A DNA stretch of 28,966 nt, from positions 23,879-52,844 of the forward strand of contig MGQK01000079.1 of NCBI GenBank assembly GCA_001797815.1, in the 5' to 3' direction. The translations under genes and the position numbers were made by a program. This document shows, piece by piece, positions 2,402 to 25,305 of this stretch. This DNA comes from Deltaproteobacteria bacterium RBG_13_61_14 (lineage in GTDB: Bacteria; RBG-13-61-14). The notes beneath the pieces are model-generated. The model saw only the letters and a list, made by a program, of their open reading frames with translations, did no database searches and was not told where the DNA came from. Within the stretch, counting starts at the first letter, position 1; each line of letters opens with the position of its first letter.

Positions 2402-2430
2402 AGTTGGGGTCAGGTCTTCACATTTCACAT
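2401..2430 (+). repeat. Left terminal inverted repeat of the Y1 transposase element
   Basis: These 30 bases are the exact reverse complement of 3404-3433. Identity stops at both borders: the flanking bases 2400/3434 and 2431/3403 do not pair. Confidence 0.9.
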
Positions 2431-3368
2431 AAGTCTCGCATTCTCTTGGCCAGAGCCCGATCATTTTGCATCCTTTGCTCGAGTCGTTTGACGCCCATGC
2501 TGACCGCGGAAACACCGACTCCAAGAGCCCGGCCCACTTCGGTCAAGGGATAGCCCCGGCGGGACACCAAATACCAATAGGCCATCTGCCGAAACGGACC
2601 GGCGCCTCGCCCCTTTTGCAAGTTGGCCGCGCTGACACCCAAGCCCTCCGCCACCCGATGCAGAGCCACGGTGAGTTCCCCCCTCGCTCTTGCCCGCCGA
2701 TAGTGCGGGACGGTTTTCGGGTTTCCTTGCGGCCGGTATTTCTCCGCCAGGCGCGCCAAACTCTCGGGCGAGCCGGCCGGCCCTTGGCCTCGAAACTGAT
2801 CCCAAATCGCTTCCTGGTTTCCGGCCAGCGCCTGGCAGACCTGACGGTAATACCGGCGTTGATGGGATTCGGTGCCTCCATAGCTCCCCAGGATGGCGCG
2901 GGATTGAAGCCAAAGGAAGCGTGGCCTGGGCCGGGTATATTCGCGGAAGCTTGACCAGAAATAATCCGCCGGGTCTTTGACCAGCCCCGCCCGGACCGGG
3001 TTCAGGTGGAGGTAAACGGAGAGGTGTTGCCAATGGTTTTCGTCGGTAATCAGAACGGCTTTGAACCGGCCCTGGAGAAGATGGCCGTCGGTGCGATGCC
3101 GGCGGTTGAAGCGGACGGTGTAGGTGACGTTCAGCCAATGCATGGCCTGACTCAGGTTCGCCTGGGGAGTGCGCAGGAAGAGGTGGTAGTGGTTGCTCAT
3201 CAAGCAGAAGGCGAAGAGATGGAGCTTGTAACGCTCCCCAGCTTGTTCGAGTAATTGCAGGAAGGTTTGACGATCCGAGTCGTCGAGGAAAATGTCTGCG
3301 CGCTTGTTGCCCCGGGCGGTGACATGGTAAACCGCGTCGGGGAACTGGATACGCCAGGGTCTGGCCAT
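2418..3368 (-). CDS. Y1-type (HUH, RAYT-like) transposase
   Basis: A 316-residue protein starting MARPWRIQFPDAVYHVTARGN, the typical opening of REP-associated tyrosine transposases. The HUH metal motif is H60-Y-H62 (LMSNHYHLFLRTP) and the catalytic tyrosine is probably Y119 in VYLHLNPVRAGLV. These single-strand nucleases cut and join DNA through a 5'-phosphotyrosine bond. Residues of about 250-305 (GYPLTEVGRALGVGVSAVSM) form a DnaA-domain-IV-like or helix-turn-helix DNA-binding tail, as in the longer members of this family. All motifs are present, so the enzyme may be functional. Its 3' end runs into the left inverted repeat, and its start lies about 36 bp inside the right one. Confidence 0.92.
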   Translation of the reverse strand: MARPWRIQFPDAVYHVTARGNKRADIFLDDSDRQTFLQLLEQAGERYKLHLFAFCLMSNHYHLFLRTPQANLSQAMHWLNVTYTVRFNRRHRTDGHLLQGRFKAVLITDENHWQHLSVYLHLNPVRAGLVKDPADYFWSSFREYTRPRPRFLWLQSRAILGSYGGTESHQRRYYRQVCQALAGNQEAIWDQFRGQGPAGSPESLARLAEKYRPQGNPKTVPHYRRARARGELTVALHRVAEGLGVSAANLQKGRGAGPFRQMAYWYLVSRRGYPLTEVGRALGVGVSAVSMGVKRLEQRMQNDRALAKRMRDLCEM

Positions 3369-6113: not shown

Positions 6114-7928
6114 TTACTCGCCCCAGGCGGCGGCCAGCTCGGGATGCTCGTTCAGATATTCGCGGATGCCCCGCGCCATGGCCCGGGCCAGGTCGTCCTG
6201 AAAGGAAGAAGACACCAACCGCTTTTCTTCGCGGCGGTTGCTGATGAAAGAGGTCTCCACCAGCACGCAAGGCATGCGGGCGCCGGTCAAGACCCAGAAG
6301 GGCGCCTTCTTCACGCCCAGGTCGTGGACGTTGGAATACTCTTTTTTCAGCTCCCGCACCAGCGACTCCTGGACCAACCCGGCCAGGGGCACGGAGTCGT
6401 TGACTTTGGTAGTAGTTTGCAAGTCGGCCAGGATCAAGTTGGTGATGCTGTCGGCTTTGGTCTGCTTGTCCTCGGACACAAAGTTCTCCCGCGCCGCCAG
6501 CTTGAGCGCGGCCCGGTCGGTGGTGTTGTCCAGGTAATAGGTCTCGATGCCCGCGGCCTCCCGGTTGGGGCTGGCGTTGCAGTGGATGGAGATGAACAGG
6601 TCCGCGTCCAGGGTATTGGCCCGGGCCGTGCGCTCGACCAAAGAGAGGTAGCGGTCGTCGGAGCGGGTCAGCACCACCTTCAACTCCGGGTTCTCCTTTT
6701 CCAGCCGCGCCTTGAGCTTCTTGGCCAGGGCCAGGGTCACGTCCTTCTCTCGCGTCCGGCCCGGGCCGATCGCGCCCGGGTCTTTGCCGCCGTGCCCGGG
6801 ATCAATCACGATCACGGATCGGGTCGGGGCCTTGCCGGCCTTGGCTGGGGCCGGAGCCGGCTCGCGTTTCTTGGCGGTTGGCCGGGGGCCGGGTGCGGGA
6901 GCAGTAGTGGCCGGCGAGGCCGAGGCCGAGGGCTGCGTCGCGGGAGAGCGCGCCGGAGCCGTCTTTTGGCCGCTGATATCCATGACCACCCGGAACCCGC
7001 CGTCCTCCCCGGGCAGCGGAAAACAGTGAAAGTCGCTGATGCTCTTCAAGTCCAGCACCACCCGGGCCGCGTCCTGATCGTGCTGGCCGGCGCGGGCCTT
7101 TTCCAACAAGCCGTCGCCGATGGGCAGGTCGTAAAAGCCGTCCCGGAGCGGCGTCTGCTCCCGGAACTCCTGGCTGAGCACGGTCCCGGGAAAATCCACG
7201 TAGAGCCGGGGCGGCGCGCCCAGGTTCGGATCCGGCTTGAGCAGGTGGGGCGGCAGGAATTCCACTTCCCGGTCCAGGTCCACCACCACCCGGGTGTAGT
7301 CCTGGCTCGACCAGTAGCGGATCGTGAGGATCTGCGCGGGCGATGCCCCCGGAGCCGGGCTGACCGGAGCGGACGGCGCGGCAGGGCTGGGGGATGGAGC
7401 CACCGGCGCCGGCTTAGGCGCCGGAGGGGCGCTGCCTTGGGGCAGCCCGGCCAGTTGGGCCTGGGCCTGGCGGACCATGTCGCCCCGGCGATAGCGCTGG
7501 ATCGCGCGCTGGTATTCGATGCGGCCGCGGTCATAATCGCCCATCAGCTCAAAGCAGCGGCCGCGCAGGAACTGGGCGTCATCGGCCAGGGTCGAGTCCG
7601 GGTATTGGGCGATCAGCGCCTGGAACGGCCCGAGCGCGGCCTCAAGGTCATTCGGGTTCTTGGAAAAGGCGTAGCAGTCGAAGCGGAGCTTGCCCGCCAT
7701 GTAAAGGGCGTCGTCGGCCTTGTGGCAGTCCGGGTATTTCTCCGCCACCGCCTCAAACTCGCCGGCCAGGCTTTCCCAGCGCTCGTGATATTTCTTCTGG
7801 GCCGGGGACCGGATAAAAGAGGAATAATGATCGGACGCGCGCGCGTAAGCCGCGGTGCAATCCGAGGCTTGAACTGCGGCCGGGAGAGACCAAAAGACTG
7901 CTATTACCGCCGCCACTCCGATCCGCAT
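6114..7928 (-). CDS. N-acetylmuramoyl-L-alanine amidase (TPR-like, AMIN and Amidase_3 domains)
   Basis: A 604-residue periplasmic enzyme that would cut the amide bond between MurNAc and the stem peptide during cell division, like AmiA/B/C. After a signal peptide (MRIGVAAVIAVFWSLPAAVQAS) come a tetratricopeptide-like helical region (about 40-140), a Pro/Ala linker, an AMIN peptidoglycan- or septum-targeting domain (about 200-313), a second Pro/Ala linker, and the catalytic domain (about 368-600). The catalytic domain shows the zinc ligands and base expected: DPGHGG, the Glu of TREKDV, SIHCNA, and the Glu of VLVETSFISN. The ATG at 7928 is preferred over an in-frame ATG at 7952: it has GGAG upstream and opens directly into the signal peptide. 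The gene heads a unit with glnD. Confidence 0.92.
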   Translation of the reverse strand: MRIGVAAVIAVFWSLPAAVQASDCTAAYARASDHYSSFIRSPAQKKYHERWESLAGEFEAVAEKYPDCHKADDALYMAGKLRFDCYAFSKNPNDLEAALGPFQALIAQYPDSTLADDAQFLRGRCFELMGDYDRGRIEYQRAIQRYRRGDMVRQAQAQLAGLPQGSAPPAPKPAPVAPSPSPAAPSAPVSPAPGASPAQILTIRYWSSQDYTRVVVDLDREVEFLPPHLLKPDPNLGAPPRLYVDFPGTVLSQEFREQTPLRDGFYDLPIGDGLLEKARAGQHDQDAARVVLDLKSISDFHCFPLPGEDGGFRVVMDISGQKTAPARSPATQPSASASPATTAPAPGPRPTAKKREPAPAPAKAGKAPTRSVIVIDPGHGGKDPGAIGPGRTREKDVTLALAKKLKARLEKENPELKVVLTRSDDRYLSLVERTARANTLDADLFISIHCNASPNREAAGIETYYLDNTTDRAALKLAARENFVSEDKQTKADSITNLILADLQTTTKVNDSVPLAGLVQESLVRELKKEYSNVHDLGVKKAPFWVLTGARMPCVLVETSFISNRREEKRLVSSSFQDDLARAMARGIREYLNEHPELAAAWGE

Positions 7929-7963
7929 TTTCGCTCCACTCCGCCCGAGCATGGCTGATCTTC

Positions 7964-7993
7964 ATTATAAACGATTGGACCCCAAGAAGGCAA
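7964..7993 (-). promoter_or_regulatory. Sigma70-type promoter of the amidase-glnD unit
   Basis: On the minus strand TTGCCT (7988-7993) is followed after 18 bp by a perfect TATAAT (7964-7969). Transcription would start near 7957, giving a leader of about 30 nt to the ATG at 7928 and almost none to the ATG at 7952. This supports the later start. Confidence 0.6.
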
Positions 7994-8050
7994 GCATTTT
8001 TTGCGGCGAAAAAATGAAACTTTGCCGCCTTCTTCCAAGTTGAGCCTGCT

Positions 8051-8180
8051 TTACTAATGGGAGCATGAAATATTGGACACTTCCCGCGGCGGGCAAACCC
8101 CGTAGGGGCACGGCATGCCGTGCCCCTACAATCTGTGCCGGGGTTCCTCACTGTCCAATGAATAGCGCTCCCATTAGTAA
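8051..8180. mobile_element. MITE-like element A (130 bp)
   Basis: The outer arms TTACTAATGGGAGC (8051-8064) and GCTCCCATTAGTAA (8167-8180) are perfect inverted repeats. A second paired block, TTGGACA / TGTCCAA, lies just inside them. The core holds a perfect 28-bp palindrome at 8102-8129 (GTAGGGGCACGGCA and its complement). There is no coding capacity, so it would depend on a transposase elsewhere. Confidence 0.7.
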
Positions 8181-8229
8181 CCCGGAAAATGCAATCAGGA
8201 TTTTACCACGAAGACACAAAGGCTCTAAG
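8181..8229 (+). repeat. Dispersed repeat, copy 1 (second copy at 28916-28964)
   Basis: This 49-bp stretch, starting CCCGGAAAATGCAAT and ending GACACAAAGGCTCTAAG, recurs at the very end of the window with three mismatches. It abuts the right end of MITE-like element A, and its last five bases are the first five of element B. Confidence 0.7.
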
Positions 8230-8362
8230 AAACTATCTCAAAACCGGCAAGGTAGGAGCGGCTCGCGAGCCGCCCCTACGCCGTGCCCTTGATTTTATCG
8301 CGGGTCAAAATTGCCATGGTGTATAATTATCCAAAACCAGAGGTTTTGAGATAGTTTCTTAG
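8225..8362. mobile_element. MITE-like element B (138 bp)
   Basis: Perfect 21-bp inverted ends at 8225-8245 (CTAAGAAACTATCTCAAAAC...) and 8342-8362. The core carries a near-perfect 28-bp palindrome at 8252-8279, of the form GTAGGAGCGG...CCGCCCCTAC, related in design to that in element A. It is non-coding. Confidence 0.75.
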
Positions 8363-8754
8363 TGCTCCAGTTCATAATTTCGATGAGGTATTTTCACTGC
8401 TCGCTCCCGCCTTGCCCCATCACGCTCCCCCTCACCCTCCCCTCTCCCCCCAGCGGGGGAGAGGATAAGGAGAGGGGGGTGGCCTTTCGGTGTCCCAGGA
8501 CTGATATGAAGATCAAGAATACGCCATGATATTTATGAAATAGCCCACTAAGTCAGAATGATTTCTTGCCGATTCGGCTGGGATTTTCTTCCCGGTCCAA
8601 GTTGACCGCTCGCGCCGGTCCCCCGTGCTCTCAACCCGCTTATTCTTCGTGACTTTGTGCCTTGGTGGTTAAGAAATCTTTTTCCCAACCGCACGATTCG
8701 GGTTTAAATGAACAGCATTGCGACCTGCCCCCCATCCCCAATCCATCCTTCACC

Positions 8755-10248
8755 CTAGCGGTTTAGCCTTCTCCAGATGCGGATCAGGATCCCCAGCGTA
8801 TAGCGCGGTCGTTGGAAGAGAAGATCAAACAGGAATCGCTTCAGGAACACCCACGGACGGCGCAGGAACGAGCGCAGGCTGTAGTAGAGGAACGCCCGGC
8901 TCACGATCCGCTCGAGTTCCCCCGCGGCAAAAATCCCTTCCCGGTAAGGGGAGCGGGAGTAAGAGAGATTTTCGAAATTGAAATCCTCCTGAAGCAACCG
9001 GCGCGACTTGGCGATTTCATACAGTTCCGTGCCGGGGAGGGGATTGGCCACAAAAAAATAGGCGAGATCCGTTTTCATCTGGTGGGCGAAGCGAATGGTC
9101 TCGCGGATTTGCTCCCGGGTTTCGCCGGGGAAGCCGCAGATGTAAAAAGCGTCGGTGCGGATCTTTTTGGTCCGGATGTAGCGGGTGATCTCCGCCGCCT
9201 GCTTGAGCTGGAGCGGCTTTTTCACGATCTGGCGCAACACTTCTTGACAGCCGCTCTCGTAGGCCAAGGTCATCTCGTAACAGCCCGCCGCCACCATTAA
9301 ATCCACTAATTCCTCGTCCAGGGTCCACAGACTCACGCCGTTCGGATAATTGAACTTGATCTGGTAGCCGCGAGCGATCATCCCGCGAAAGATGGCCTTC
9401 GCCCGCTTGCGGTCCGCGGTCATGTTGTCATCTTCGAATTGGATTTCATCAATCCCCCACCGGTTGATCATCTCGCCGATCTCGTCCAAAACATTCTCCG
9501 CCGAGCGGGTCCGATAATGGTTGCCCCAAAAGTGCGTGCTGGAGCAAAAGATACAGCGGGCCGGACAGCCCCGGGAGGTGAGCATCGGGGCGTAGTGGCG
9601 GCTGGTCGTGCTTAAGCTGTGCGACGCCCCCACCCGGGGGTAAAGCTTCATCGGCAAAAGCTCCCGGGCGGGGAAGGGGATCGAGTCCAGATTTTCAATC
9701 CATCGGGTTTTGGGAGTAATCACCGCCTGTCCGTTCTCTTTGAAGGCCAGGCCGTCTATTTCCGAGAGCGCGCGGCCCTCCTGCAAGTGCCGGATCACGG
9801 AAAGCAGGGTGATCTCTCCTTCCCCTAAGGCAATCATGTCCAGGGAAGGCTCGTGCAAGCAATCTTCAGCCAAGAAAGTAGGATACCCGCCCCCGGTGAT
9901 GGTCAAGATCCTGGGATCTATTTTTTTTACCGTCCGGCACACTTCCCGGACCACCGGAAAAACCGAGCTGAAGATGCAACTAACTCCCACGAGGTCGGGC
10001 TGGAACCGTTCCATCCGCGCCTGGATTTCCGAGAGCGGGGAACCATACCAGGTAAAAACCGGGTCCAGTTTTTTTTTGTAATCACTTTCCGCGACCGCAT
10101 CCATGATCTGAACCTCCGCTTCATTTCGGATCACGGCCGCCAGATAGGAAACCCCCAAGGGCGATGAAGCTACTTTCATTGTCTCCCGCGCCAACCGGAC
10201 CGGCGGGAACAGCAAAAAGACTCGTTCGATTTTTCTTTTTTCGGGCAT
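8755..10248 (-). CDS. Cobalamin-binding-type radical SAM protein
   Basis: A 497-residue protein with the B12-binding/radical SAM architecture of the BchE-like family. Residues of about 10-150 form the Rossmann-type cobalamin domain (VFLLFPPVRLARE, then LVGVSCIFSS and ITGGGYPTFLAED), but without the DxHxxG motif of base-off binders. The radical SAM core starts with the 4Fe-4S motif C228-x3-C232-x2-C235 (SRGCPARCIFCSS) and continues through QFEDDN, AYESGC and CGFPGET. The C-terminal 70 residues are basic and arginine-rich. Relatives catalyse methylations, ring formation or oxidations in lipid, hopanoid and tetrapyrrole pathways; no neighbour tells which. It is flanked by repeat-filled gaps on both sides and is apparently transcribed alone. 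No strong promoter was recognised. Confidence 0.88.
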   Translation of the reverse strand: MPEKRKIERVFLLFPPVRLARETMKVASSPLGVSYLAAVIRNEAEVQIMDAVAESDYKKKLDPVFTWYGSPLSEIQARMERFQPDLVGVSCIFSSVFPVVREVCRTVKKIDPRILTITGGGYPTFLAEDCLHEPSLDMIALGEGEITLLSVIRHLQEGRALSEIDGLAFKENGQAVITPKTRWIENLDSIPFPARELLPMKLYPRVGASHSLSTTSRHYAPMLTSRGCPARCIFCSSTHFWGNHYRTRSAENVLDEIGEMINRWGIDEIQFEDDNMTADRKRAKAIFRGMIARGYQIKFNYPNGVSLWTLDEELVDLMVAAGCYEMTLAYESGCQEVLRQIVKKPLQLKQAAEITRYIRTKKIRTDAFYICGFPGETREQIRETIRFAHQMKTDLAYFFVANPLPGTELYEIAKSRRLLQEDFNFENLSYSRSPYREGIFAAGELERIVSRAFLYYSLRSFLRRPWVFLKRFLFDLLFQRPRYTLGILIRIWRRLNR

Positions 10249-10959
10249 CGGGTTCGGGTCTCTTTTTCCAGTAAGGGCACAGCCGATTGATCCGGCAATG
10301 CCCGCCAGCCGAGATCAACTTTTCAGCGCTGGCGACGATGATAACACTTCAAAGGTTCATCGCGTTCAGGTGTGGATCATTTTTCTCAAAGGACGAAGAA
10401 AGCGATTCCTCTTGAGGACTTCCTGGCCTTGCGCAGATCCTGATGATAAGCGCCGAAAAAGACCGCCTCCGCCCACTAGCCGCCGGCGAGCAACGGCGCG
10501 AGTCCGAATTAAGCGAGACCCAGGTTGAGGGTTTGGAGTCAGAAATTCAGGGCGTGTTGCCCAAATTAAATTTCGATTCAGCCTCGCCTTTCCATCATCG
10601 CAAAATCGCGGGGTTACCTCGTCAGGGCGACCGGACTTCGGCGAGCTCAGTCGAGCCGCCGGTCACCCTGGCCGTGGCTGCTCGGGGCGGATTCCAAACC
10701 CGCCCTACTACTCGGGCAACCCTTTTCAGGCAACTCCATTTTAGGCTTTGAGCGTTCTCTATGTCAAGGGAAAAATTCTCCTTGCCCACCCCCATTTTTT
10801 ATCCGCACCGCATATTTTCGGCCTGCGTAGGGGCGCAATTCATTGCGCCCCTTTCCCGCAAGGGCGCGATAAATCGCGCCCCTACCCCCGGTTTCCAAAA
10901 AATGGGTGTGGGCAAGAAAAATTCTCTGACACTAAAACTTGTCCGCGGCGGAGAAGGTT
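10249..10959. other. Intergenic region with repeats and possible gene debris
   Basis: About 700 bp without a convincing gene. Between roughly 10378 and 10560 short open frames in different phases (for example PLEDFLALRRS, then AGEQRRESELSETQ) look like a decayed, frameshifted coding sequence, but I cannot name it. At 10623-10670 there is a hairpin with arms CAGGGCGACCGG / CCGGTCACCCTG (one mismatch). A MITE-like element fills 10762-10931. Confidence 0.45.
10762..10931. mobile_element. MITE-like element C (170 bp)
   Basis: The imperfect inverted ends begin TGTCA (10762-10766) and end TGACA (10927-10931). Inside them lie TTGCCCACCCCCATTTTTT on the left and its near-complement AAAAAATGGGTGTGGGCAA on the right. 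The core holds two palindromic cassettes, GGGGCGCAATTCATTGCGCCCC and GGGCGCGATAAATCGCGCCC (written here without the flanking GTAG/CTAC). It ends about 30 bp before the -35 box of the next gene. Confidence 0.6.
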
Positions 10960-10988
10960 TTGGTTTTTGCCCGATGGTCGGTTATAAT
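10960..10988 (+). promoter_or_regulatory. Sigma70-type promoter placed for a leaderless transcript
   Basis: TTGGTT (10960-10965), a 17-bp spacer and a perfect TATAAT (10983-10988). A start seven bases after the -10 box falls on the A of the ATG at 10995. No Shine-Dalgarno-like sequence lies before that ATG. Confidence 0.6.
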
Positions 10989-10994
10989 TCTTTT

Positions 10995-11774
10995 ATGAGC
11001 CGCTCCGGCATCATCACCCTGACCTCCGACTTCGGCGACCAGGACAGCTACGTGGCCGCCATCAAGGCGGTGATCCTGGGCATTTTCCCGGAGGCGCGCT
11101 TGGTGGACATCAGCCACCAGGTCCCGGCGCAGGACATCACCCATGCCGCTTATCTCTTGAAAAGCTCGGCGCTTTACTTTCCGGCCGGCACCGTGCACCT
11201 GGCCGTGGTGGACCCGGGCGTGGGATCGTCCCGGCGGGCCATCGCGCTCGAGTCGCAAGGCCATTTCTTTGTCGGGCCGGACAACGGGATCTTCACCGAC
11301 TTTCTCGGACCCGAATCCAGAACCTTCCTTCTCAACCGCCCCGAGTTCTTCCGGCCCCGGGTCTCGGCCACCTTCCACGGCCGCGACATCTTCGCCCCGG
11401 TCGCCGGCCACCTGGCCAAGGGCGCGGACCTGGAGAGCCTGGGCGAGCCGATCTTTGACCCCAAGAAGCTGCCCCGGCCGGAGCCCAAGGTCTTGCCGGA
11501 CCGGATCGTGGGCGAGGTGATTCACGTGGACCGGTTCGGGAACCTGATCACCAACATCCCCTCCGAGCTGATCCCGTCGCGCTCGACCATCCGCATCATG
11601 GGCAAAGACATCCCGGGCCTCTCTCCCCACTACCAGAGCGCTCCGGCCGGAGTGCTCCTGGCCCTGATCGGCTCGACCGGGCTCCTGGAAATTTCCCTGC
11701 CCGAAGATTCCGCGGCCCAGCGGCTCAAAGCCTGGACCGGCCAGGCGGTGGAAGTGCTTTTTACCGGGGAGTGA
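10995..11774 (+). CDS. SAM hydroxide adenosyltransferase (DUF62 / fluorinase-like family)
   Basis: A 259-residue member of the family that splits S-adenosylmethionine with water to adenosine and methionine; it is related to fluorinase and chlorinase. Seen here: ITLTSDFGDQDSYVAAIKA at the N-terminus, the conserved VVDPGVGSSRRAIAL with Asp73 and Arg80/81, VGPDNGIF, and FHGRDIFAPVAGHL with His128. Asp-Arg-His is the triad described for the water-using members. The C-terminal beta-barrel contains HVDRFGNLITNI. The open frame continues upstream to 10761, but that part is the repeat element, and a -10 box lies in it. The ATG at 10995 gives the normal family start. It is probably transcribed without a leader, from its own promoter. 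Confidence 0.92.
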   Translation: MSRSGIITLTSDFGDQDSYVAAIKAVILGIFPEARLVDISHQVPAQDITHAAYLLKSSALYFPAGTVHLAVVDPGVGSSRRAIALESQGHFFVGPDNGIFTDFLGPESRTFLLNRPEFFRPRVSATFHGRDIFAPVAGHLAKGADLESLGEPIFDPKKLPRPEPKVLPDRIVGEVIHVDRFGNLITNIPSELIPSRSTIRIMGKDIPGLSPHYQSAPAGVLLALIGSTGLLEISLPEDSAAQRLKAWTGQAVEVLFTGE

Positions 11775-11780
11775 CCTGAC

Positions 11781-11793
11781 CCGGCCAAGCCGG
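11781..11793 (+). terminator. Short hairpin after the SAM hydroxide adenosyltransferase gene
   Basis: CCGGC, a three-base loop CAA, then GCCGG, starting six bases after the stop codon. It is followed by an A/G stretch and only a short T run (TTTT at 11803-11806), so it is a weak candidate for an intrinsic terminator. Confidence 0.3.
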
Positions 11794-11807
11794 AAAGAAG
11801 GATTTTC

Positions 11808-11914
11808 AACACAGAGATCACGGAGAACACTGAGGACAAAGATTCAGAAATGAGGTCTGGTTTTTTTGAGCCTGCTTTTAATTTCTTCTCCGTGCTCTCT
11901 GTGCGCTCTGTGTT
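11808..11914. repeat. Imperfect palindromic CACAGAG-type repeat
   Basis: The left arm AACACAGAGATCACGGAGAA (11808-11827) faces a right arm containing TCTCCGTGCTCTCTGTGCG and ending CTCTGTGTT at 11914. It belongs to the same sequence family as the large array at 21910-22530. Confidence 0.6.
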
Positions 11915-11944
11915 AAACTCTTGTTCTCCTCTCTTCGCAGTAGG

Positions 11945-11972
11945 TTGCTATTTCTCCGCCAGCCAGTATAAT
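11945..11972 (+). promoter_or_regulatory. Sigma70-type promoter of parA-parB
   Basis: TTGCTA (11945-11950), a 16-bp spacer and TATAAT (11967-11972). Transcription would start near 11979, leaving a leader of about 13 nt before the ATG at 11992. It excludes the in-frame ATG at 11971, which lies in the -10 box. Confidence 0.6.
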
Positions 11973-11991
11973 GAGGCCGGGTCAAGCGCGG

Positions 11992-12765
11992 ATGGCCAAA
12001 ATCATCGCCATTGCCAATCAGAAAGGCGGCGTGGGCAAGACCACCACCGCGGTCAATCTGGCCGCGGCTTTGGCCGTGGCCGAGAAAAAGACCCTGCTCC
12101 TTGACCTCGACTCCCAGGCCAATGCCACCTCCGGGCTCCTCAGCAACGGCGCCTCGGTCGCGGCCAGCATCTACCCCGTGCTCCTGGGCGAGCTCCCCCT
12201 GGCGCAGGCCGTCATCCCCACCGAGCTGCCTTACCTCTTCCTCGCCCCCTCCACCCCCGACCTGGCCGGCGCCGAGATCGAGCTGATCGAGACCGAATCC
12301 CGCGAGCGCCGGCTCCAGCAGGCCCTCACGCCCGTGGCCAAGGACTATGCCTTCATCATCCTCGACTGCCCGCCCTCCTTGTCCCTGATCACCGTCAACG
12401 CCCTGACCGCGGCCCACCGGGTCCTGGTGCCGCTGCAATGCGAATACTATGCCCTGGAAGGACTGGGCCGGCTGCTGAAAACCGTCGCGCTGGTGCGCGA
12501 GCGGCTCAACCCCGCGCTCGCCATCGAAGGGATCCTCCTCACCATGTATGACCGCCGCAACAACCTCTCGCGCCAGGTGGAGGAAGAAGTGCTCAAGCAC
12601 TTTCCCAAGCTGGTCTTCAAGACCGTGATCCCCCGCAACGTCCGCCTGGCCGAAAGCCCCAGCTTCGGCAAACCCATCCTGCTCTACGACGCCGCCTCCA
12701 CCGGCGCCGAGAGCTACCTCCGCCTCGCCCGCGAGATCCTCGACCGGGCAGGAGCCAAACGATGA
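11992..12765 (+). CDS. parA: Chromosome-partitioning ATPase ParA (Soj)
   Basis: A 257-residue ParA/Soj ATPase. The deviant Walker A motif is IANQKGGVGKTTTAVNLAAAL near the N-terminus. Walker A' is LLLDLDSQANAT and Walker B is FIILDCPPSLSLITVNAL. Dimers bound to ATP coat the nucleoid and are released by ParB, which moves the origin region. The chosen start gives the standard MAKIIAIANQKGG opening. There is no long N-terminal extension, so it is the short chromosomal type rather than the long plasmid P1 type. It overlaps parB by four bases (ATGA), meaning translational coupling. Its promoter sits directly upstream. Confidence 0.95.
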   Translation: MAKIIAIANQKGGVGKTTTAVNLAAALAVAEKKTLLLDLDSQANATSGLLSNGASVAASIYPVLLGELPLAQAVIPTELPYLFLAPSTPDLAGAEIELIETESRERRLQQALTPVAKDYAFIILDCPPSLSLITVNALTAAHRVLVPLQCEYYALEGLGRLLKTVALVRERLNPALAIEGILLTMYDRRNNLSRQVEEEVLKHFPKLVFKTVIPRNVRLAESPSFGKPILLYDAASTGAESYLRLAREILDRAGAKR

Positions 12766-15429: not shown

Positions 15430-16503
15430 ATGAAACTAAAAACCTGCTGTCTGGTATCGGTTGCCATCCTGGCTTGCATGGGGCGAGCTTCATTCGGCGC
15501 GGAAGCGCCTCCGCGAACCCTGACCGTGGCCGCGGTGCAAACCGCCAACCGCGACGGCGACTACGAGCAGAGCCGGGCCATAGCCGAGCGGATGGTGGTT
15601 GAGGCGGTGGAAAAGGGCGCGCGGTTGATCCTGCTGCCTGAGTTCGCCCTGATCGGCTACCGCTTCCATGACGATATCTGGCAGATGGCCGAGCCGCTGG
15701 AAGGCCCGACCCTGGCCTGGATGCAGGCGCTCTGCCGACGCTATCAGATCTATCTCGCCACCTGCATCCTCGAGGTCAAGGACGATGACTTCTACGACAC
15801 CCTGGTCCTGGTGGGACCGGGCGAGGGCGAGCTTTGGGTCCATCGCAAGATCGAGCCGGCCCTGTTCGAAGCGCGTTACTTCAAGGGCGCGGGGCTGAAC
15901 CCCTCGGTGTTCGAGACCCCGCTCGGCCGGATCGGCGTGGCCATCTGCTACGATACCTCCAAGAGCCACACCATTCGCGACCTGCTCCAGGGCCGGCCGG
16001 AAATTGTGCTTATGACCTACTCGGCGCCGGAAATCCCCATTGCGCTCAAGAGCATGAACCGGCTCAACATCCAGGCCAACCTGGAGCTGCCCGTGCTCTA
16101 CGCCCGCGTGCTCGGCGCGCCCGCGGTGATGGTGAATAAGACCGGAAAATGGGACTCGCCTTTCCCCATGCTCCCCCTCGTGCCGCTCCGCTCGGAATTC
16201 GCCGCCCGCTCCCGCATCGTGGCCGCCCAAGGCAACGTGCTCGCCAGCCTGGAAAAGGAAGAGGCGGTGATCGTGGCCGAGGTGGAGCTGGGCGCCGCTA
16301 TCCAGCCCCGGCCCCAGGAGATCCCGGTGGGCCGCTGGTTTGTCCCCTACAATGGGCTGATGCGATGGTTCAGCGATTTCACCTTTCACCGCGGCGAGCG
16401 CCGCTACCAGCGGAGCCAGGCCCGCCAAAAGGCGGTGGAGGAAGCCAAAGTTCGGCACCTCGTCAACTCCCCGTGTGCCGGCGACAGCGGGAACGAAGAT
16501 TGA
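15430..16503 (+). CDS. Exported nitrilase-superfamily (carbon-nitrogen) hydrolase
   Basis: A 357-residue protein with the nitrilase triad Glu71 (LLPEFALIGY), Lys140 (WVHRKIEPALFEARYF) and Cys173 (IGVAICYDTSKSH). The superfamily hydrolyses C-N bonds in nitriles, amides and carbamyl compounds; the substrate class is not clear here. Unlike most members it begins with a signal peptide (MKLKTCCLVSVAILACMGRASFGA), so it should act in the periplasm. The frame is open upstream into the acyl-CoA dehydrogenase, but GGAGG at 15416-15420 precedes the ATG at 15430. It sits between the dehydrogenase and the ABM gene with gaps of 23 and 21 bp, indicating one transcript. The linked function is unknown. Confidence 0.85.
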   Translation: MKLKTCCLVSVAILACMGRASFGAEAPPRTLTVAAVQTANRDGDYEQSRAIAERMVVEAVEKGARLILLPEFALIGYRFHDDIWQMAEPLEGPTLAWMQALCRRYQIYLATCILEVKDDDFYDTLVLVGPGEGELWVHRKIEPALFEARYFKGAGLNPSVFETPLGRIGVAICYDTSKSHTIRDLLQGRPEIVLMTYSAPEIPIALKSMNRLNIQANLELPVLYARVLGAPAVMVNKTGKWDSPFPMLPLVPLRSEFAARSRIVAAQGNVLASLEKEEAVIVAEVELGAAIQPRPQEIPVGRWFVPYNGLMRWFSDFTFHRGERRYQRSQARQKAVEEAKVRHLVNSPCAGDSGNED

Positions 16504-16524
16504 GGAAAACCAAGAAAGGAGAGG

Positions 16525-16821
16525 ATGCAAATGATCGTGTTGGCGGCCACGTTGAAGGCGAAGGCGGGCAAGGAGGACGAGCTGATTGCGGCCATGAAGA
16601 AACTGGTGGCTGCGGTCCGGCAAAACGAGCCGGGCGCTCTCGATTACACGCTCCACCGCTCTAAAAAAGACCCGGCCACGTTCCTGGTCTATGAAAAATA
16701 CCGGGACGATGCGGCCATGAAAGCGCACATGGGTTCAGTCCATTTCCAGGAGGCCAGCAAAAAGTTCGGAGAGCTTTTGGCCGGCCCGCCCGGGCTGGAG
16801 ATGTTCGAGGTGGTGGAGTAA
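16525..16821 (+). CDS. Antibiotic biosynthesis monooxygenase (ABM) domain protein
   Basis: A 98-residue protein with the dimeric ferredoxin-like ABM fold of the YgiN/YcnE type: MIVLAATLKAKAGKEDELIAAM, then EPGALDYTLHRSKKDPATFLVYEKYRDDAAMKAH, quoted in its two conserved segments. YgiN-like members act on quinols; others are heme-degrading or of unknown role. The start is ambiguous: ATG at 16525 is only 3 nt after AGGAG, whereas ATG at 16531 (MIVLAAT) is at the ideal 9 nt. It is the last gene of the unit that starts with the acyl-CoA dehydrogenase, and a hairpin follows it. Confidence 0.85.
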   Translation: MQMIVLAATLKAKAGKEDELIAAMKKLVAAVRQNEPGALDYTLHRSKKDPATFLVYEKYRDDAAMKAHMGSVHFQEASKKFGELLAGPPGLEMFEVVE

Positions 16822-16827
16822 GCCTAT

Positions 16828-16850
16828 AAAGTAAAAATTAGTCTTACTTT
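16828..16850 (+). terminator. Hairpin terminator candidate after the ABM gene
   Basis: AAAGTAA (16828-16834), a nine-base loop, then TTACTTT (16844-16850), leading into TTTTC. The stem is A-T rich and therefore weak. Its right arm also encodes the end of the RHS fragment on the other strand, so it may work bidirectionally. Confidence 0.4.
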
Positions 16851-17119
16851 TCAAACTGCGCTCGCGGACCAATGTCTTGCAGAAATATTGATTGCAAATT
16901 TAAGGAGCTATGTAAAAAGATAAACAAGCAGTTGAAGGATTGATAGATCTTTCCATCTTGCCGCGTACTTCCAAGCTGATCCTTGTGGTAGTAGAGCACG
17001 TCACGCTCCAGGGTCTGCGCTTTGGCCGATCGAGGCCCCCAAAGCTTCCCCGACTTTTTAGCCTGTTTCAGATTGTCAAAGAGCTCTTGCGTCAGTTGAC
17101 TGAATGGGATCTTAGTTTC
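16844..17119 (-). pseudogene. Remnant of an RHS-repeat core protein
   Basis: On the minus strand a frame without a start codon reads ETKIPFSQLTQELFDNLK, QAKKSGKLWGPRSAKAQT and LERDVLYYHKDQLGSTR. The last part is the RHS/YD core signature (normally YYHxDHLGSTR). Homology stops right after that motif; the frame then runs on through about 35 unrelated residues to a stop at 16844. GC content is normal here and drops sharply beyond 17120. RHS proteins are large toxin-delivery shells whose C-terminal tips vary, and displaced core fragments are typical debris of tip exchange. This piece lies directly downstream of the probable immunity gene. Confidence 0.6.
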
Positions 17120-17133
17120 CCTAATAAATTGAT

Positions 17134-17685
17134 TTATAAAATTATTTTATATTTTTGTAAAGATTGTGAAATGATATTATATACAAATAATATATTTATA
17201 TTTTCCTTATAATTTATTATATCATAGCGCTTAAATCCTAAATAGTTATTATTATTTATGTTCTTTATTTCAATTTCTACATTTGTTCCTCCAAAACCGG
17301 TCTGCTCGGGAGATTTAAGTTCAAAAATGTTAGCCTTTATTAAATTACTTATTAAATTACTAAAATCCTCACATTTGATAATTACAACTGACCTGCTTTT
17401 TCTATTGTTTTTAATTTTGAAGTTTTTCTTATATGTAATAATCTCATCTTCAACAATAATATTTTCATTATTGAATGTTATAAAAGTATAGTAAGCAATT
17501 CTTTTAGTAAAGTTGATAGATGATGTTTTTATTATAAGAGTATAATTATTTAAGGTTTCTCCATTTATAATTTGCTTATCGCAATCTTCATTACCTCCCC
17601 CAAGATGCGAACTTAAAAAAACAAATATTAAACAATAAAAAAATATAAATAGAAGAATACTTCTTATCAATTTATAAGCCATCAT
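17134..17685 (-). CDS. Putative immunity protein, AT-rich, membrane-anchored
   Basis: A 183-residue protein, with two consecutive ATG codons at its start and AGGAG about 10 nt upstream. The first 27 residues (MMAYKLIRSILLFIFFYCLIF...) form a signal anchor, followed by a hydrophilic, asparagine- and isoleucine-rich domain containing FGGTNVEIEIKN. I recognise no family. Position is the clue: its ATG follows directly after the TAA stop of the small tip-like frame, and an RHS-core fragment follows it. This is the usual order of toxin tip, immunity gene and displaced core fragment. The very low GC compared with the chromosome points to horizontal transfer. Confidence 0.55.
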   Translation of the reverse strand: MMAYKLIRSILLFIFFYCLIFVFLSSHLGGGNEDCDKQIINGETLNNYTLIIKTSSINFTKRIAYYTFITFNNENIIVEDEIITYKKNFKIKNNRKSRSVVIIKCEDFSNLISNLIKANIFELKSPEQTGFGGTNVEIEIKNINNNNYLGFKRYDIINYKENINILFVYNIISQSLQKYKIIL

Positions 17686-17955
17686 TTATCTTTCTCCTGG
17701 AAATTTATAATCACTTGGAAAAACATAGCCACTTTCTTGTAATGTTCTTGGAGCGGGATATCTTGGAAGGATGCTTCCGTAACCCATATTAATAACTCTT
17801 AAATCATAATTATTTAGGCTTTTCGTAGTTAAATTTGCCATAAACTCAGATGTTCCAATCTGATTCAATACATCTAAACCCATTGTTTCAGTTTGAGCAC
17901 ATACTCTATGAGATAAAAGCATATGTTCATCTTCAACCAAATTATTAGGAAGCAA
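17686..17955 (-). CDS. Possible 5'-truncated toxin C-terminal tip
   Basis: An 89-residue AT-rich frame, from a TTG at 17955, whose TAA touches the start codon of the next gene. The sequence (DEHMLLSHRVCAQTETMGL, then RYPAPRTLQESGYVFPSDYKFPGER in its last quarter) resembles no family I can name. The frame is open only two codons further upstream before it meets a stop inside the mobile-element end at 17970-17989, so any delivery domain has probably been cut off. No ribosome binding site is evident. It could also be the end of an unrelated protein; the toxin reading rests on the neighbouring immunity-like gene and RHS fragment. Confidence 0.4.
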   Translation of the reverse strand: MLPNNLVEDEHMLLSHRVCAQTETMGLDVLNQIGTSEFMANLTTKSLNNYDLRVINMGYGSILPRYPAPRTLQESGYVFPSDYKFPGER

Positions 17956-17969
17956 ACCCGCTTAATTCG

Positions 17970-17989
17970 GGGGACACCATACTTAATTC
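17970..17989 (-). repeat. Mobile-element end motif, copy 1
   Basis: On the minus strand this reads GAATTAAGTATGGTGTCCCC. The identical 20 bases occur on the plus strand at 24252-24271. I associate the motif with ends of Y1-transposase elements in environmental genomes. It borders the truncated tip-like gene. Confidence 0.6.
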
Positions 17990-18229
17990 TCCTTATTCGG
18001 ATATTCTCTCTTGCGCATTCATTACCGGAAAGCGCCTCGATCAATATGGAATTTTACGCTCCGGGCATTTCCAAGTCAAGCATTTTCTTCACAAGATTTG
18101 ATAGGAAAAATGCTATTGAAAATCAAAGGGTTGGGAGATGTTTTGCCTGACGGGGAACAGTGGACAGGGGTGCAAGGGACTTTCGGCGTTAGGCTTTTGG
18201 CTTTAGGCACAGGAACGAAAAAATCTGCG

Positions 18230-21897: not shown

Positions 21898-21909
21898 AGG
21901 AAATTCTTT

Positions 21910-22178
21910 AACACAGGGACCACAGAGGACACTGAGCTCTAAAGCCAAAAACCCCAGGAAAATTGAAACACAGAGACCACAGAGGACACGGAGCTCTAAA
22001 GCCAAAAACCCCAGGAAAATTGAAACACAGAGACCACAGAGGACACTGAGCTCTAAAGCCAAAAACCCCAGGAAAATTGAAACACAGAGACCACAGAGAT
22101 CACCGAGGCTCTTAAGCCAAAAAACCCGAGGAAAATTGAAACACTGAGACCACAGAGATCACCGAGGCTCTTAAGCCA
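21910..22178 (+). repeat. Tandem array of 57-bp repeats, block 1
   Basis: Units start at 21910, 21967, 22024, 22081 and 22140 with AACACAG or AACACTG. The first three are exactly 57 bp and nearly identical; the fourth is 59 bp and diverged, and the fifth is partial. Each unit reads AACACAGAGACCACAGAGGA, then CACTGAGCTCTAAAGCC, then AAAAACCCCAGGAAAATTGA. Confidence 0.9.
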
Positions 22179-22261
22179 TTGAGAACATGATTCTCTGCGT
22201 TCTCTGTGCGCTCTGTGTTTGATTCCTGATTCAAGTCTCCAGGCCAGAAAAGGAAGATTTA

Positions 22262-22375
22262 AACACGGAGACCACAGAGAAATCTGAGCTCTAAAGCTAA
22301 AAAACCCAGGAAAATTGAAACACAGAGACCACAGAGGACACTGAGCTCTAAAGCCAAAAAACCCCTGTGCTCTCT
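22262..22375 (+). repeat. Tandem 57-bp repeats, block 2
   Basis: Two further units start at 22262 and 22319, again 57 bp apart, separated from block 1 by an inverted segment (CTCTGCGTTCTCTGTGCG, ending CTCTGTGTTT near 22220). Confidence 0.85.
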
Positions 22376-22530
22376 GCCTTCGGCCCGAGCTCAGGCCGAG
22401 GGGTGCGCTCTGTGTTGAAATCCTGATCCTCCTGTTTTTTCTTGTCTTTGCCCAGGCTCTTAACTCTTTAGAAATAATATACTTTGTGCCCTCTGTGCGC
22501 TCTGTGAGCTCTGTGTTAAAATCCTGATCC
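22376..22530 (-). repeat. Inverted arms of the CACAGAG-type repeat family
   Basis: GTGCGCTCTGTGTT at about 22402-22415 and CCCTCTGTGCGCTCTGTGAG near 22490-22509 are complementary to the AACACAGAG starts of the direct repeats. The whole array therefore could fold into long imperfect hairpins. Confidence 0.6.
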
Positions 22531-22862
22531 TTTTGCATTTTTTGCTTGACTTTGCTCAAGCTCCTGGCCTAGAATGGCGACAAAGGAGGCCAGAGCACCC
22601 GGAGATGAAGACCTCAGAAACCATGACTCAAGTTTGCAGCCCACCCCACCCGGCCGCGGCAGGGTGGGTCACTGACATCCCTCGATTACGACTCGGGACA
22701 GGCCCTGACACCTCTTTGAGGACCCGGAGGCCAAGATGAGGCAAGGTTCTGAAAACCAAAACTTTAATGACAGCCAGAAATGGAAATGCGGGCTTATGCC
22801 CTCCTCTTCTCTGGCCAATGACCGTCCGCCTATAGCCTTGGCCTCAATTGAAGGAATTAAGC

Positions 22863-24161
22863 ATGGTTTTCTCTAAATCGAAGTATTCTGGATTCTACTA
22901 TGGTTACCATGCCCCTGGTGGACCAACATTAAAAAAAGCTTTACTATTATATGATGAAATTCATATAATGGATAGGCCTTCTTTCACAATTGATAATAAA
23001 TTTGGTTCAATCGCTCAGGACTCACCATTCAGACTTCTTCCTCAAATATTGTCTAATTCAGATATAAATATTATATGTCATGAGCCTCATTGGGGACTAC
23101 TTGGAGGAATTCTTAAACAGCCACTTCTTACGAGCCTAGAAGAAGACATGAATGATCGAGATTTTGTTAATATATTTATAGATGGATTAATTAACGATCC
23201 AATTTTTTCATCAGTTATTTTGAGAGATAATCCAACATTCCGCGTTAAAAAGGTTCCATTTTTTGTTGAATTGGGTTTGGTTCAGTTAGCCGCTAAGGCA
23301 GTAGCCAAAGGTTTCCCGCCATCATTATTAGGAGATAGTTATTTCCCAGAGCTTGAGAAAATGACAAACTTTAAGAAATTGAAATATTCTCGCATTCAAA
23401 ATTCCATTATCAATAAGGACTGGAGTAATGTTGAATTTAGCCTTGAAAGGTTACAAAAAGCTGATCCTTCAGCAATTGTCAACCCAGATTCAAATGAGGG
23501 AATAGAATTGATTGTAAATTGGCTTTTATGCAAGGCATCTCATATGCTAAATAATTTTATGTTAACAACTATAGAAACAGATTCCGTTCCTTTTACTGAT
23601 TTGATGACTTATCACAAGTTATTAGCTATAAAATACCATAGGGCTTCAAATAGGATACCTAATTCTTTATTTGGGGGATCAACTTTCGGTATTATAGCTA
23701 ATACTATATTAGATGATATCCTTTTATCAGATAATCTTAAGAAAAGAAAGATTAAAGATCTACTAAAATATAGAAAAAAGCATAAAAATGAGTTAATTGA
23801 ATTTAGATGTTACCTAGCTGAACTTCAGCATAAAATAGAGAAAGAACCATTCGATGCAGAAATAGAAAAAGAAGTTAGTAAACTTATAAGTCTGGAAGTA
23901 ATGCCAAAAGCTCGAGAATATAGGGAAAGATTAATTAAATCATGGGAGAATTTATTTGGATCACTTGCGAAATCCATAGGAAGGCCTGGCTGGAAGGCTA
24001 TGACAATGTTGGTTCTTTGGGGATTACCGCTGGACAAGCTTGTTACCATGGGCTCAATAGCTGCTTTGGGAGCATGGGCTGCTCCATCAGTTGTAGATTT
24101 TATTATTGAAAGAAGAAAAATTTCTAGAACAAATGGATTGGCATACTTATTGAAAATATAA
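22863..24161 (+). CDS. Unknown 432-residue protein of the AT-rich island (defence candidate)
   Basis: An AT-rich gene (neighbouring chromosome is GC-rich) with no family I can name. The ATG at 22863 is chosen because AAGGA lies about 8 nt upstream; the frame also has a TTG five codons earlier. The N-terminus (YYGYHAPGGPTLKKALLLYDEIHIMDRPSF) has the look of proteins that open with a strand, a helix and an acidic turn. The middle is helical. The part from about residue 285 to 365 is strongly charged and may form coiled coils. Near the C-terminus TMLVLWGLPLDKLVTMG and SIAALGAWAAPSVVDFII (about 381-415) are hydrophobic enough to insert in a membrane, followed by IERRK. It stands about 200 bp upstream of the TIR-like gene on the same strand. 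Confidence 0.6.
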   Translation: MVFSKSKYSGFYYGYHAPGGPTLKKALLLYDEIHIMDRPSFTIDNKFGSIAQDSPFRLLPQILSNSDINIICHEPHWGLLGGILKQPLLTSLEEDMNDRDFVNIFIDGLINDPIFSSVILRDNPTFRVKKVPFFVELGLVQLAAKAVAKGFPPSLLGDSYFPELEKMTNFKKLKYSRIQNSIINKDWSNVEFSLERLQKADPSAIVNPDSNEGIELIVNWLLCKASHMLNNFMLTTIETDSVPFTDLMTYHKLLAIKYHRASNRIPNSLFGGSTFGIIANTILDDILLSDNLKKRKIKDLLKYRKKHKNELIEFRCYLAELQHKIEKEPFDAEIEKEVSKLISLEVMPKAREYRERLIKSWENLFGSLAKSIGRPGWKAMTMLVLWGLPLDKLVTMGSIAALGAWAAPSVVDFIIERRKISRTNGLAYLLKI

Positions 24162-24185
24162 AAATGTTTGAGATAAGATCATTAA

Positions 24186-24240
24186 ATTAAATTAGGGAAA
24201 TTAGGAAATTAGGGAAATTAGGGACAGTCACCTATTTCAA
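24186..24240 (+). repeat. Short direct repeats with a mobile-element end
   Basis: Four successive copies of AAATTAGG(G) lead into GGGACAGTCACCTATTTC. I associate such sequences with ends of Y1-transposase elements; the remainder of any element is missing. It lies between the two AT-rich genes. Confidence 0.5.
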
Positions 24241-24251
24241 GACGGCAAAAG

Positions 24252-24271
24252 GAATTAAGTATGGTGTCCCC
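24252..24271 (+). repeat. Mobile-element end motif, copy 2
   Basis: GAATTAAGTATGGTGTCCCC, identical to the minus strand of 17970-17989. The two copies are inverted and 6.3 kb apart. Confidence 0.6.
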
Positions 24272-24369
24272 GGATGTTACCGGATTTTGGATTTATATAG
24301 AGGGGCGAGGAATCCGATTCAATTTATGGTTCCAATTTCTCTTTAATTGATTGTCAAAGGAGGAAAAGG

Positions 24370-25305
24370 TTGATTTCAATTGAAGCTCACCATCTGGATT
24401 CGAATAAAATACAGTGGATAGCAAAAGAAGTTGGCGCAACCTCATATGATATTATTCATATAGTATTTAATATCCCAAATGTTTTCAATCAAAGGGAAGC
24501 ATTGTTATTAATTCTTGATACAATAAAAAGAAATAGTATTATTTGGTTAAAATCTATCAATTACGAAGAATGGATTATTGACCTTGATAGTTTAAAATCA
24601 TCTTTTGATATTCTAAAATCCATTGATTGGTTAAAAGGTAAATTACACATAAAACCAGAATTCACTCCTAGTATTTCTGTTGGCCGTACGTTCACTCTAG
24701 CTAAAGTAAAATTTATTATTTCTTCATTTGATAGCAACCAAACACATGATGATTCGCAATCAGCCAAGGTGCTGAGGCCTGCGCCACAAGAGCAAGCAAT
24801 GGAAACAGAAACTACAGAAAAACGTGATGGTTCAATGGTAGAAGCTCATGGACAATCCCTAATAGGTAACAATATATTTATAGGCCATGGAAGATCCAAT
24901 GCTTGGAGGGAGCTTAAAGATTTTTTATCCGAGCGTTTAAAACTCAATTATGATGAATATAATAGAGAGGCAACAGCCGGTTATTCAAGAAAGGAAAGAC
25001 TTCTGCAAATGCTTGCAGGTGCGAGATTTGCATTTTTGGTGTTGACAGCTGAAGATGAGCATGCAGATCGCGAAAAGCATGCACGAGAAAGTGTTATTCA
25101 TGAAGTTGGATTATTTCAAGGGAAGCTGGGGTTTGAGCGAGCAATAATTCTCTTGGAAGAGGGCTGCAATGAATTTTCAAATATTGAAGGGCTGGATCAA
25201 ATACGTTTTCCAGTTGGTGATATCAGCGCAAAATTTGAAGAAATAAGAAGAGTTCTTGAAAGAGAAGGAATAGTGGAGAAGATTAGAGATCAGGGTCAAA
25301 TCTAA
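24370..25305 (+). CDS. TIR-like (PF10137-type) nucleotide-binding effector with unknown N-terminal domain
   Basis: A 311-residue protein starting at TTG with AGGAGG 6-7 nt upstream. Residues 168-300 match the 'predicted nucleotide-binding protein, TIR-like' domain: NIFIGHGRSNAWRELKDFL, then AGYSRKERLLQMLAGARFAFLVLTAEDE, and ARESVIHEVGLFQGKLGF, with EEGCNEFSNIEGLDQIRF near the end. Domains of this class occur in CBASS (Cap12-type) and Pycsar-like antiphage effectors that degrade NAD+ on sensing a cyclic nucleotide. Glu245 of VIHE is the probable catalytic residue. The first 125 residues are an unrelated alpha-beta domain that I do not recognise and that may be the sensor, joined by a charged, Gln/Glu-rich linker. 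No cyclase gene is beside it. Base composition is AT-rich like the upstream gene. Confidence 0.85.
   Translation: MISIEAHHLDSNKIQWIAKEVGATSYDIIHIVFNIPNVFNQREALLLILDTIKRNSIIWLKSINYEEWIIDLDSLKSSFDILKSIDWLKGKLHIKPEFTPSISVGRTFTLAKVKFIISSFDSNQTHDDSQSAKVLRPAPQEQAMETETTEKRDGSMVEAHGQSLIGNNIFIGHGRSNAWRELKDFLSERLKLNYDEYNREATAGYSRKERLLQMLAGARFAFLVLTAEDEHADREKHARESVIHEVGLFQGKLGFERAIILLEEGCNEFSNIEGLDQIRFPVGDISAKFEEIRRVLEREGIVEKIRDQGQI

Follow-up and report, generated by a model that had tools for sequence, protein, structure and literature searches.

Two adjacent AT-rich genes in a GC-rich bacterial chromosome, here termed P1 and P2, raised the question of whether they form a new two-gene antiphage system or came to lie side by side independently. 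Our analysis indicates that P2 probably works as a phage-defence switch made up of one gene, rather than as half of a new two-gene system. The window, by which we mean the whole analyzed stretch of 28,966 nucleotides, corresponds to positions 23879-52844 of contig C79 in a 4.7 Mb genome that is distributed over 132 contigs and is 95% complete. The collection compared includes three genomes of this phylum, and the gene flanking the locus upstream is absent from both of the others.

According to the ORF listing, P1 and P2 are both encoded on the plus strand and lie 208 bp apart. The GC content drops from about 65% to 28-39% across the pair, with 33.4% in P1, 28.5% in the part of P2 encoding residues 1-125, and 39.0% in its TIR part, compared to 63-65% in the flanking genes. 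These coordinates and GC values agree with the description of two AT-rich same-strand genes given in the first-pass annotation, and both genes are genuine. No defence genes were recognized around P2 within the window. Another AT-rich stretch, with GC down to 29%, lies at 16500-18100 of the window, and the minus strand at 17134-17685 encodes a 183-aa ORF with 21.7% GC, a hydrophobic N-terminal segment, and no significant Pfam family. The features of the locus and of the related operon on contig C12 are compiled in Table 1.

Table 1. Coordinates of the genes, domains, and repeats discussed in the text (window positions unless a contig is given).
Feature	Position	Strand	Remarks
Dispersed repeat upstream of P1	22534..22712		copies 82-84% identical on contigs C65 and C127
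Dispersed repeat running into the P1 start	22724..22879		copies 86% identical on contig C75
17-bp direct repeat, left, AAGGAATTAAGCATGGT	22851..22867	+	includes the P1 start codon
P1	22863..24161	+	432 aa; remote DUF6236-like; frame open from TTG 22848
Dispersed repeat between P1 and P2	24203..24274		20 further genomic matches, full or partial
17-bp direct repeat, right, AAGGAATTAAGTATGGT	24249..24265	+	between P1 and P2; 16/17 identical
P2 ribosome-binding site AAGGAGG	24357..24363	+	6 nt before the TTG start
P2	24370..25305	+	311 aa; orphan N-terminal domain, linker, and TIR domain
P2 N-terminal domain	24370..24744	+	residues 1-125; predicted alpha+beta; candidate sensor
P2 linker	24745..24864	+	residues 126-165; pLDDT <50 at residues 124-165
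P2 TIR domain, PF10137	24871..25209	+	residues 168-280; E 7.3e-20
E245 codon	25102..25104	+	putative catalytic glutamate, by alignment
Apparent operon of methylase, P2 paralogue, and 337-aa ORF	contig C12 (L107) 7383-12632	-	

The TIR domain of P2 and its family

The position of the TTG start codon of P2 agrees with M1 of a paralogue encoded in the same genome. The PF10137-type TIR-like domain that had been noted in P2 was confirmed by the Pfam search, in which the match reached 71.6 bits and thus passed the curated cut-off of 24.7, while matches to euk_SelB_III and IMS stayed below their cut-offs and were discarded. The conserved glutamate of this family is the catalytic residue. Its counterpart E245 in P2 is invariant in 22/22 aligned sequences, the paralogue among them, and pairs in the alignment with the glutamate of DNVVFEFGLF in structures of Cap12 proteins, whose sequences are the closest to P2 in the PDB. 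In SfTIR-STING, this glutamate has been described as catalytic (PMC13142454). An AlphaFold2 model of P2, generated with 21 relatives (mean pLDDT 71, pTM 0.45), had its best fold match in the TIR domain of SfSTING/TIR-STING (Foldseek E 6e-7), with a superposition of Z 15.2 and rmsd 2.5 over 124 residues (7un8), and SPARTA TIR domains and nucleotide hydrolases ranked next. Based on sequence and model, the TIR domain of P2 probably destroys NAD.

In principle, the TIR domain of P2 could instead produce a nucleotide signal or hydrolyze another nucleotide and thereby feed a separate effector, as deoxyribosyltransferases and nucleotide hydrolases share this fold (DNPH1, Z 12.3), and the C-terminal domain of the paralogue is nearer to PF05014. 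We regard this chemistry as unlikely, since the TIR domain of Cap12/SfSTING is the best match of P2 in both sequence and fold, with the glutamate in place, and no signal-receiving effector adjoins P2.

A scan of the genome contig collection with the TIR alignment detected 239 loci encoding relatives, the best 80 of which reach 52-72% identity in their best segment. With the taxonomy as given in the records, these represent over a dozen phyla. The hosts of these best 80 loci belong to Planctomycetota, several proteobacterial classes, Desulfobacterota, Myxococcota, Campylobacterota, Acidobacteria, Verrucomicrobia, Cyanobacteria, Nitrospirae, Actinobacteria, Chloroflexi, Poribacteria, Cloacimonadota, and Delongbacteria. 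For the clustering of N-terminal regions and for the neighbourhoods, we used these 80 genome loci together with 4 plasmid loci, i.e., 84 in total. The N-terminal regions fell into clusters of 62 members (mostly about 235 aa), 11 members (about 110 aa), 3 members, and a cluster of 2 formed by P2 and its paralogue, in addition to ten singletons, which include truncated genes. Judged by sequence, a strongly conserved TIR domain follows N-terminal regions of about a dozen unrelated kinds, as expected for an effector module whose input domains can be exchanged. ORF families within 2.5 kb of the TIR genes each occurred in at most 3 of the 84 loci, in a clustering of six-frame ORFs (BLAST, E 1e-8) that fast-evolving partners would escape. 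As no flanking family recurs and the N-termini vary, these TIR genes are most simply read as a single-gene module in which the input domain is exchanged.

Two TIR genes of the same family lie close together in Rhizobium, Agrobacterium, and Neorhizobium (L002, L003, and L081). Of each two, one carries the N-terminal region of 235 aa that is common in the family, and the other a different one; in Rhizobium leguminosarum (L002), the gene with the 235-aa region is split over several frames. When P2 was used as a single-protein query, nothing was found in the genome contig or viral contig collections. A TIR relative with 43% identity over residues 187-299 is encoded by the Microcystis phage vB_MaeS-yong1 (MT855965.1, 3421-3759), where it is annotated as CMP/hydroxymethyl hydrolase.

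P1 and the repeats that surround it

The P1 protein has four landmarks: the N-terminal LKKALLLYDEI, a central DLLKYRKKHKNELIEFR, a C-terminal hydrophobic pair, and a final AYL. The hydrophobic pair, to which the first-pass annotation had drawn attention, is visible in the translation at about residues 380-415. No family was assigned to P1 in Pfam, PADLOC, NCBIfam, or PHROG; a Nucleoprot-TPR match in Pfam was below cut-off and discarded, and a single-protein scan of the viral contig collection found nothing. P1 also fails the Pfam cut-off for DUF6236 (PF19749), with no match at E up to 10, and a search of its own genome with PF19749 yielded nothing.

A weak match among 386 genomes (E 0.0014, residues 296-423) was to a clear DUF6236 member (E 3e-22), and phmmer detected P1 with a DUF6236 protein at E 3e-4 among the 6,890 ORFs of the loci examined. 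A profile built from six DUF6236 members gave 19.5 bits with P1, a value that was approached by none of 20,000 local shuffles (none at or above 18, best 16.9), and in the 6,890 ORFs this family's profile matched its own source proteins and one homologue of them, and nothing else. The alignment of P1 with DUF6236 by hhalign covered residues 293-373 (probability 79.5, E 1.5e-5 for a single comparison). The N-terminal motif, which scores weakly (LKKALLLYDEI opposite YWDEI), and the final AYL are also collinear. Taken together, the shuffle test, the profile, hhalign, and the collinear motifs show P1 to be DUF6236-like despite the missed Pfam cut-off, so that the earlier view of a protein without any known family had to be given up. 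The relationship is remote: P1 shares three collinear motifs and the profile match with DUF6236, but its 432 aa contrast with a model of 324 positions. A structure prediction of P1 without alignment was useless (pLDDT 37), and a match of P1 to a very long frame (L011) was judged to be a coiled-coil match.

The DUF6236 genes that we opened are found on plasmids and in two Vibrio prophage records, where they lie past the tail-fibre genes at the accessory end; this placement fits an accessory gene. In the two related prophages, they occupy the same accessory end (L016, 4635-5507, and L017, 4671-5534), and one of them adjoins an HNH endonuclease gene. The Vibrio prophage genes constitute a candidate phage-borne cargo family; no mention of DUF6236 was found in a literature search.

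Element ends beside and between the two genes had been suspected, and three dispersed repeats were indeed found there (Table 1). One of the C75 copies of the repeat that runs into P1 lies upstream of another ORF, and the best copies of the repeat between P1 and P2 are on contig C85, with 94% and 84% identity. Direct repeats of 17 bp with the sequence AAGGAATTAAG(C/T)ATGGT bracket P1. The left copy forms the end of the dispersed repeat that takes in the P1 start codon, and the right copy belongs to the dispersed repeat between the genes. With these repeats around P1 and between the genes, the locus looks like two acquisitions at a repeat-rich site, and P1 is probably an independent acquired gene.

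Dispersed repeats ending in GGAATTAAGTATGGTGTCCCC recur in the genome (C65, C75, C85, and C127), in several cases directly upstream of AT-rich sequence or genes, and are possibly mobile-element ends or an integration target. At 21899-22522 of the window, 57-bp repeats (TAAAGCCAAAAACCCCAGGAAAATTGAAACACAGAGACCACAGAG...) form an array that has inverted copies on the right. On the minus strand at 2418-3368, a 316-aa ORF resembles, by inspection, a REP-associated tyrosine transposase (Y1_Tnp type), for which a link to the dispersed repeats is conceivable.

The proposal that P1 and P2 form one defence system, with a membrane-associated P1 as trigger or sensor and P2 as the NADase, draws on their common strand and short spacing, the strong AT-richness of both, the hydrophobic pair in P1, and the accessory DUF6236 genes of the Vibrio prophages and plasmids. 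We nevertheless consider it improbable. A P1 homologue or DUF6236-like gene was found in 0 of the 84 TIR loci (80 genome, 4 plasmid), and P1 homologues are also absent beside the paralogue on contig C12, the sole other example of the P2 N-domain. Conversely, a TIR gene was present in 0 of 4 annotated DUF6236 neighbourhoods that we opened. Furthermore, the dispersed repeat separates the genes, the direct repeats bracket P1, no neighbouring family recurs, and P2 has a strong ribosome-binding site of its own. The conserved pairing on which the single-system proposal would depend was thus not seen, with no neighbouring homologues of the two genes in the loci compared, even if the N-domain offers just one other example for this comparison. 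That P1 and P2 cooperate in this genome alone is conceivable.

The N-terminal domain and its paralogue

The N-terminal domain of P2 is predicted to have an alpha+beta fold, with pLDDT mostly 75-89 per 10-residue block in the AlphaFold2 model, and fold searches with this model returned TIR matches only. Its sole detectable relative is encoded in the same genome on contig C12, in a 293-aa protein with 48% identity over residues 27-125 (E 1e-20). The C-terminal half of this paralogue matches PF05014 (E 1e-4) and PF10137 (E 0.005), both below cut-off, and is a domain different from the TIR domain of P2, but of the same superfamily and with the glutamate retained. The paralogue gene begins within the last codons of a methylase gene and overlaps it by 4 bp. 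The methylase (1117 aa) is Eco57I/TaqI-like with an HSDR_N-like N-terminus and distant similarity to BREX PglX, and a 337-aa ORF without family follows downstream of the paralogue. The GC content is 32-38% in the paralogue gene and the 337-aa ORF, and 54% in the methylase gene.

No third copy of the N-domain was detected by a single-sequence search of 290 genomes, in any of the proteins of the 84 TIR loci, or with the N-domain alignment in the viral contig collection. The 11-member class of about 110 aa gave no match to it. An N-domain profile produced five matches in 385 genomes with E 0.003-0.009, which is about the number expected by chance, and these were rejected; three of them, when opened and inspected, were in or overlapping RluA-like, DAHP-synthase-neighbouring, and isoleucyl-tRNA-synthetase-like regions.

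As the N-domain is common to two proteins with swapped effectors, a modular sensor is its likeliest reading, and the suggestion that this unrecognized domain could be a sensor has gained strength from the paralogue. With two proteins of one genome known to carry the domain, it is their architecture that points to a sensing role. Tentatively, and with some doubt, the N-domain may even be a common trigger of a Cap12-like TIR and of a TIR/deoxyribosyltransferase-like effector encoded by a gene that overlaps a type IIG-like/PglX-like methylase gene. If true, restriction-modification status and NAD-depleting suicide would have one sensor in common.

A small non-enzymatic alpha+beta domain on two TIR/DRHyd-type effectors of one genome is also reminiscent of the effector-associated domains (EADs) described in PMC7159879, three of which are alpha+beta, and as an EAD it would dock the TIR domain onto a conflict system built around an NTPase and encoded elsewhere in the genome. 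By definition, however, an EAD always has a copy fused to a core component (PMC7159879), whereas the two copies found by single-sequence search in this 95% complete genome are both on effectors, and none was found in fusion with a core NTPase component. There is hence little probability that the N-domain acts in this manner.

Proposed mechanism and known systems

A TIR domain combined with a rare N-domain that is reused on a second enzyme beside a DNA-modification gene is what makes P2 probably a single-gene phage-defence switch. The mechanism that we favour, and consider fairly likely, is that of an acquired, self-contained, NAD-targeting TIR protein with a sensory N-domain that acts by abortive infection, separately from P1. 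P2 would have been acquired horizontally as a stand-alone gene, and its N-domain (residues 1-125) would sense an infection- or damage-related cue. Binding of this cue may cause P2 to oligomerize, which would bring the TIR active sites together, and with E245 NAD+ would be cleaved, so that growth of the infected cell stops. The most likely target of this action would be phages. P1, as a separately acquired, remote DUF6236-type gene, would have landed beside P2 and stand outside this mechanism. That P1 and P2 are merely decaying, non-functional passengers of horizontal transfer would fit their orphan distribution, their foreign composition, and the repeats all round, but is very improbable given intact frames with good ribosome-binding sites in both genes, and TIR motifs and glutamate retained at 60-72% identity to distant relatives.

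The large, strongly conserved, and partner-free TIR family, with its freely swapped N-termini of about a dozen kinds, provides a panel for studying how unrelated input domains activate the same putative NADase. The presence of one N-domain on two effectors in the same genome amounts to a natural domain-swap experiment, and the pair of P2 and its paralogue possibly links a DNA-modification gene to an NAD-targeting effector.

Three PADLOC models matched P2 (PDC-S35, CBASS-effector, and PycTIR), all through the TIR part. With Cap12 (TIR-STING)/SfSTING (7un8, 9lmq), P2 shares the PF10137 TIR domain, the superposing fold, and the aligned glutamate motif. It differs in lacking a STING domain, in carrying the TIR domain C-terminally instead of N-terminally as in Cap12, and in a sequence identity of 21-24%, with an NCBIfam Cap12 score of 33.7 bits against a cut-off of 450. 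P2 does not belong to CBASS of the Cap12 type, as it has no STING match and no CD-NTase was seen on reading the window ORFs. PycTIR of Pycsar resembles P2 in having a C-terminal PF10137-type TIR domain behind a regulatory N-domain (PADLOC E 5e-9), but the match is limited to the TIR part. No cyclase was recognized beside P2 in the ORFs read, and the absence of both CD-NTase and cyclase, which the first-pass annotation had already stated, agrees with our reading of the ORF lists. The PADLOC single-gene phage-defence candidate PDC-S35 is, like P2, a single protein with a variable N-terminus and a TIR domain. It matches a relative of P2 (L085) over nearly the full length (E 2.8e-32), whereas with P2 itself the match is confined to residues 119-276 (E 1.2e-11; widest match residues 87-279) and thus centred on the TIR part, and the N-domain is different. 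A TIR family with variable N-termini is already known in kind, and what is new is the N-domain of P2 together with its second effector beside a methylase gene.
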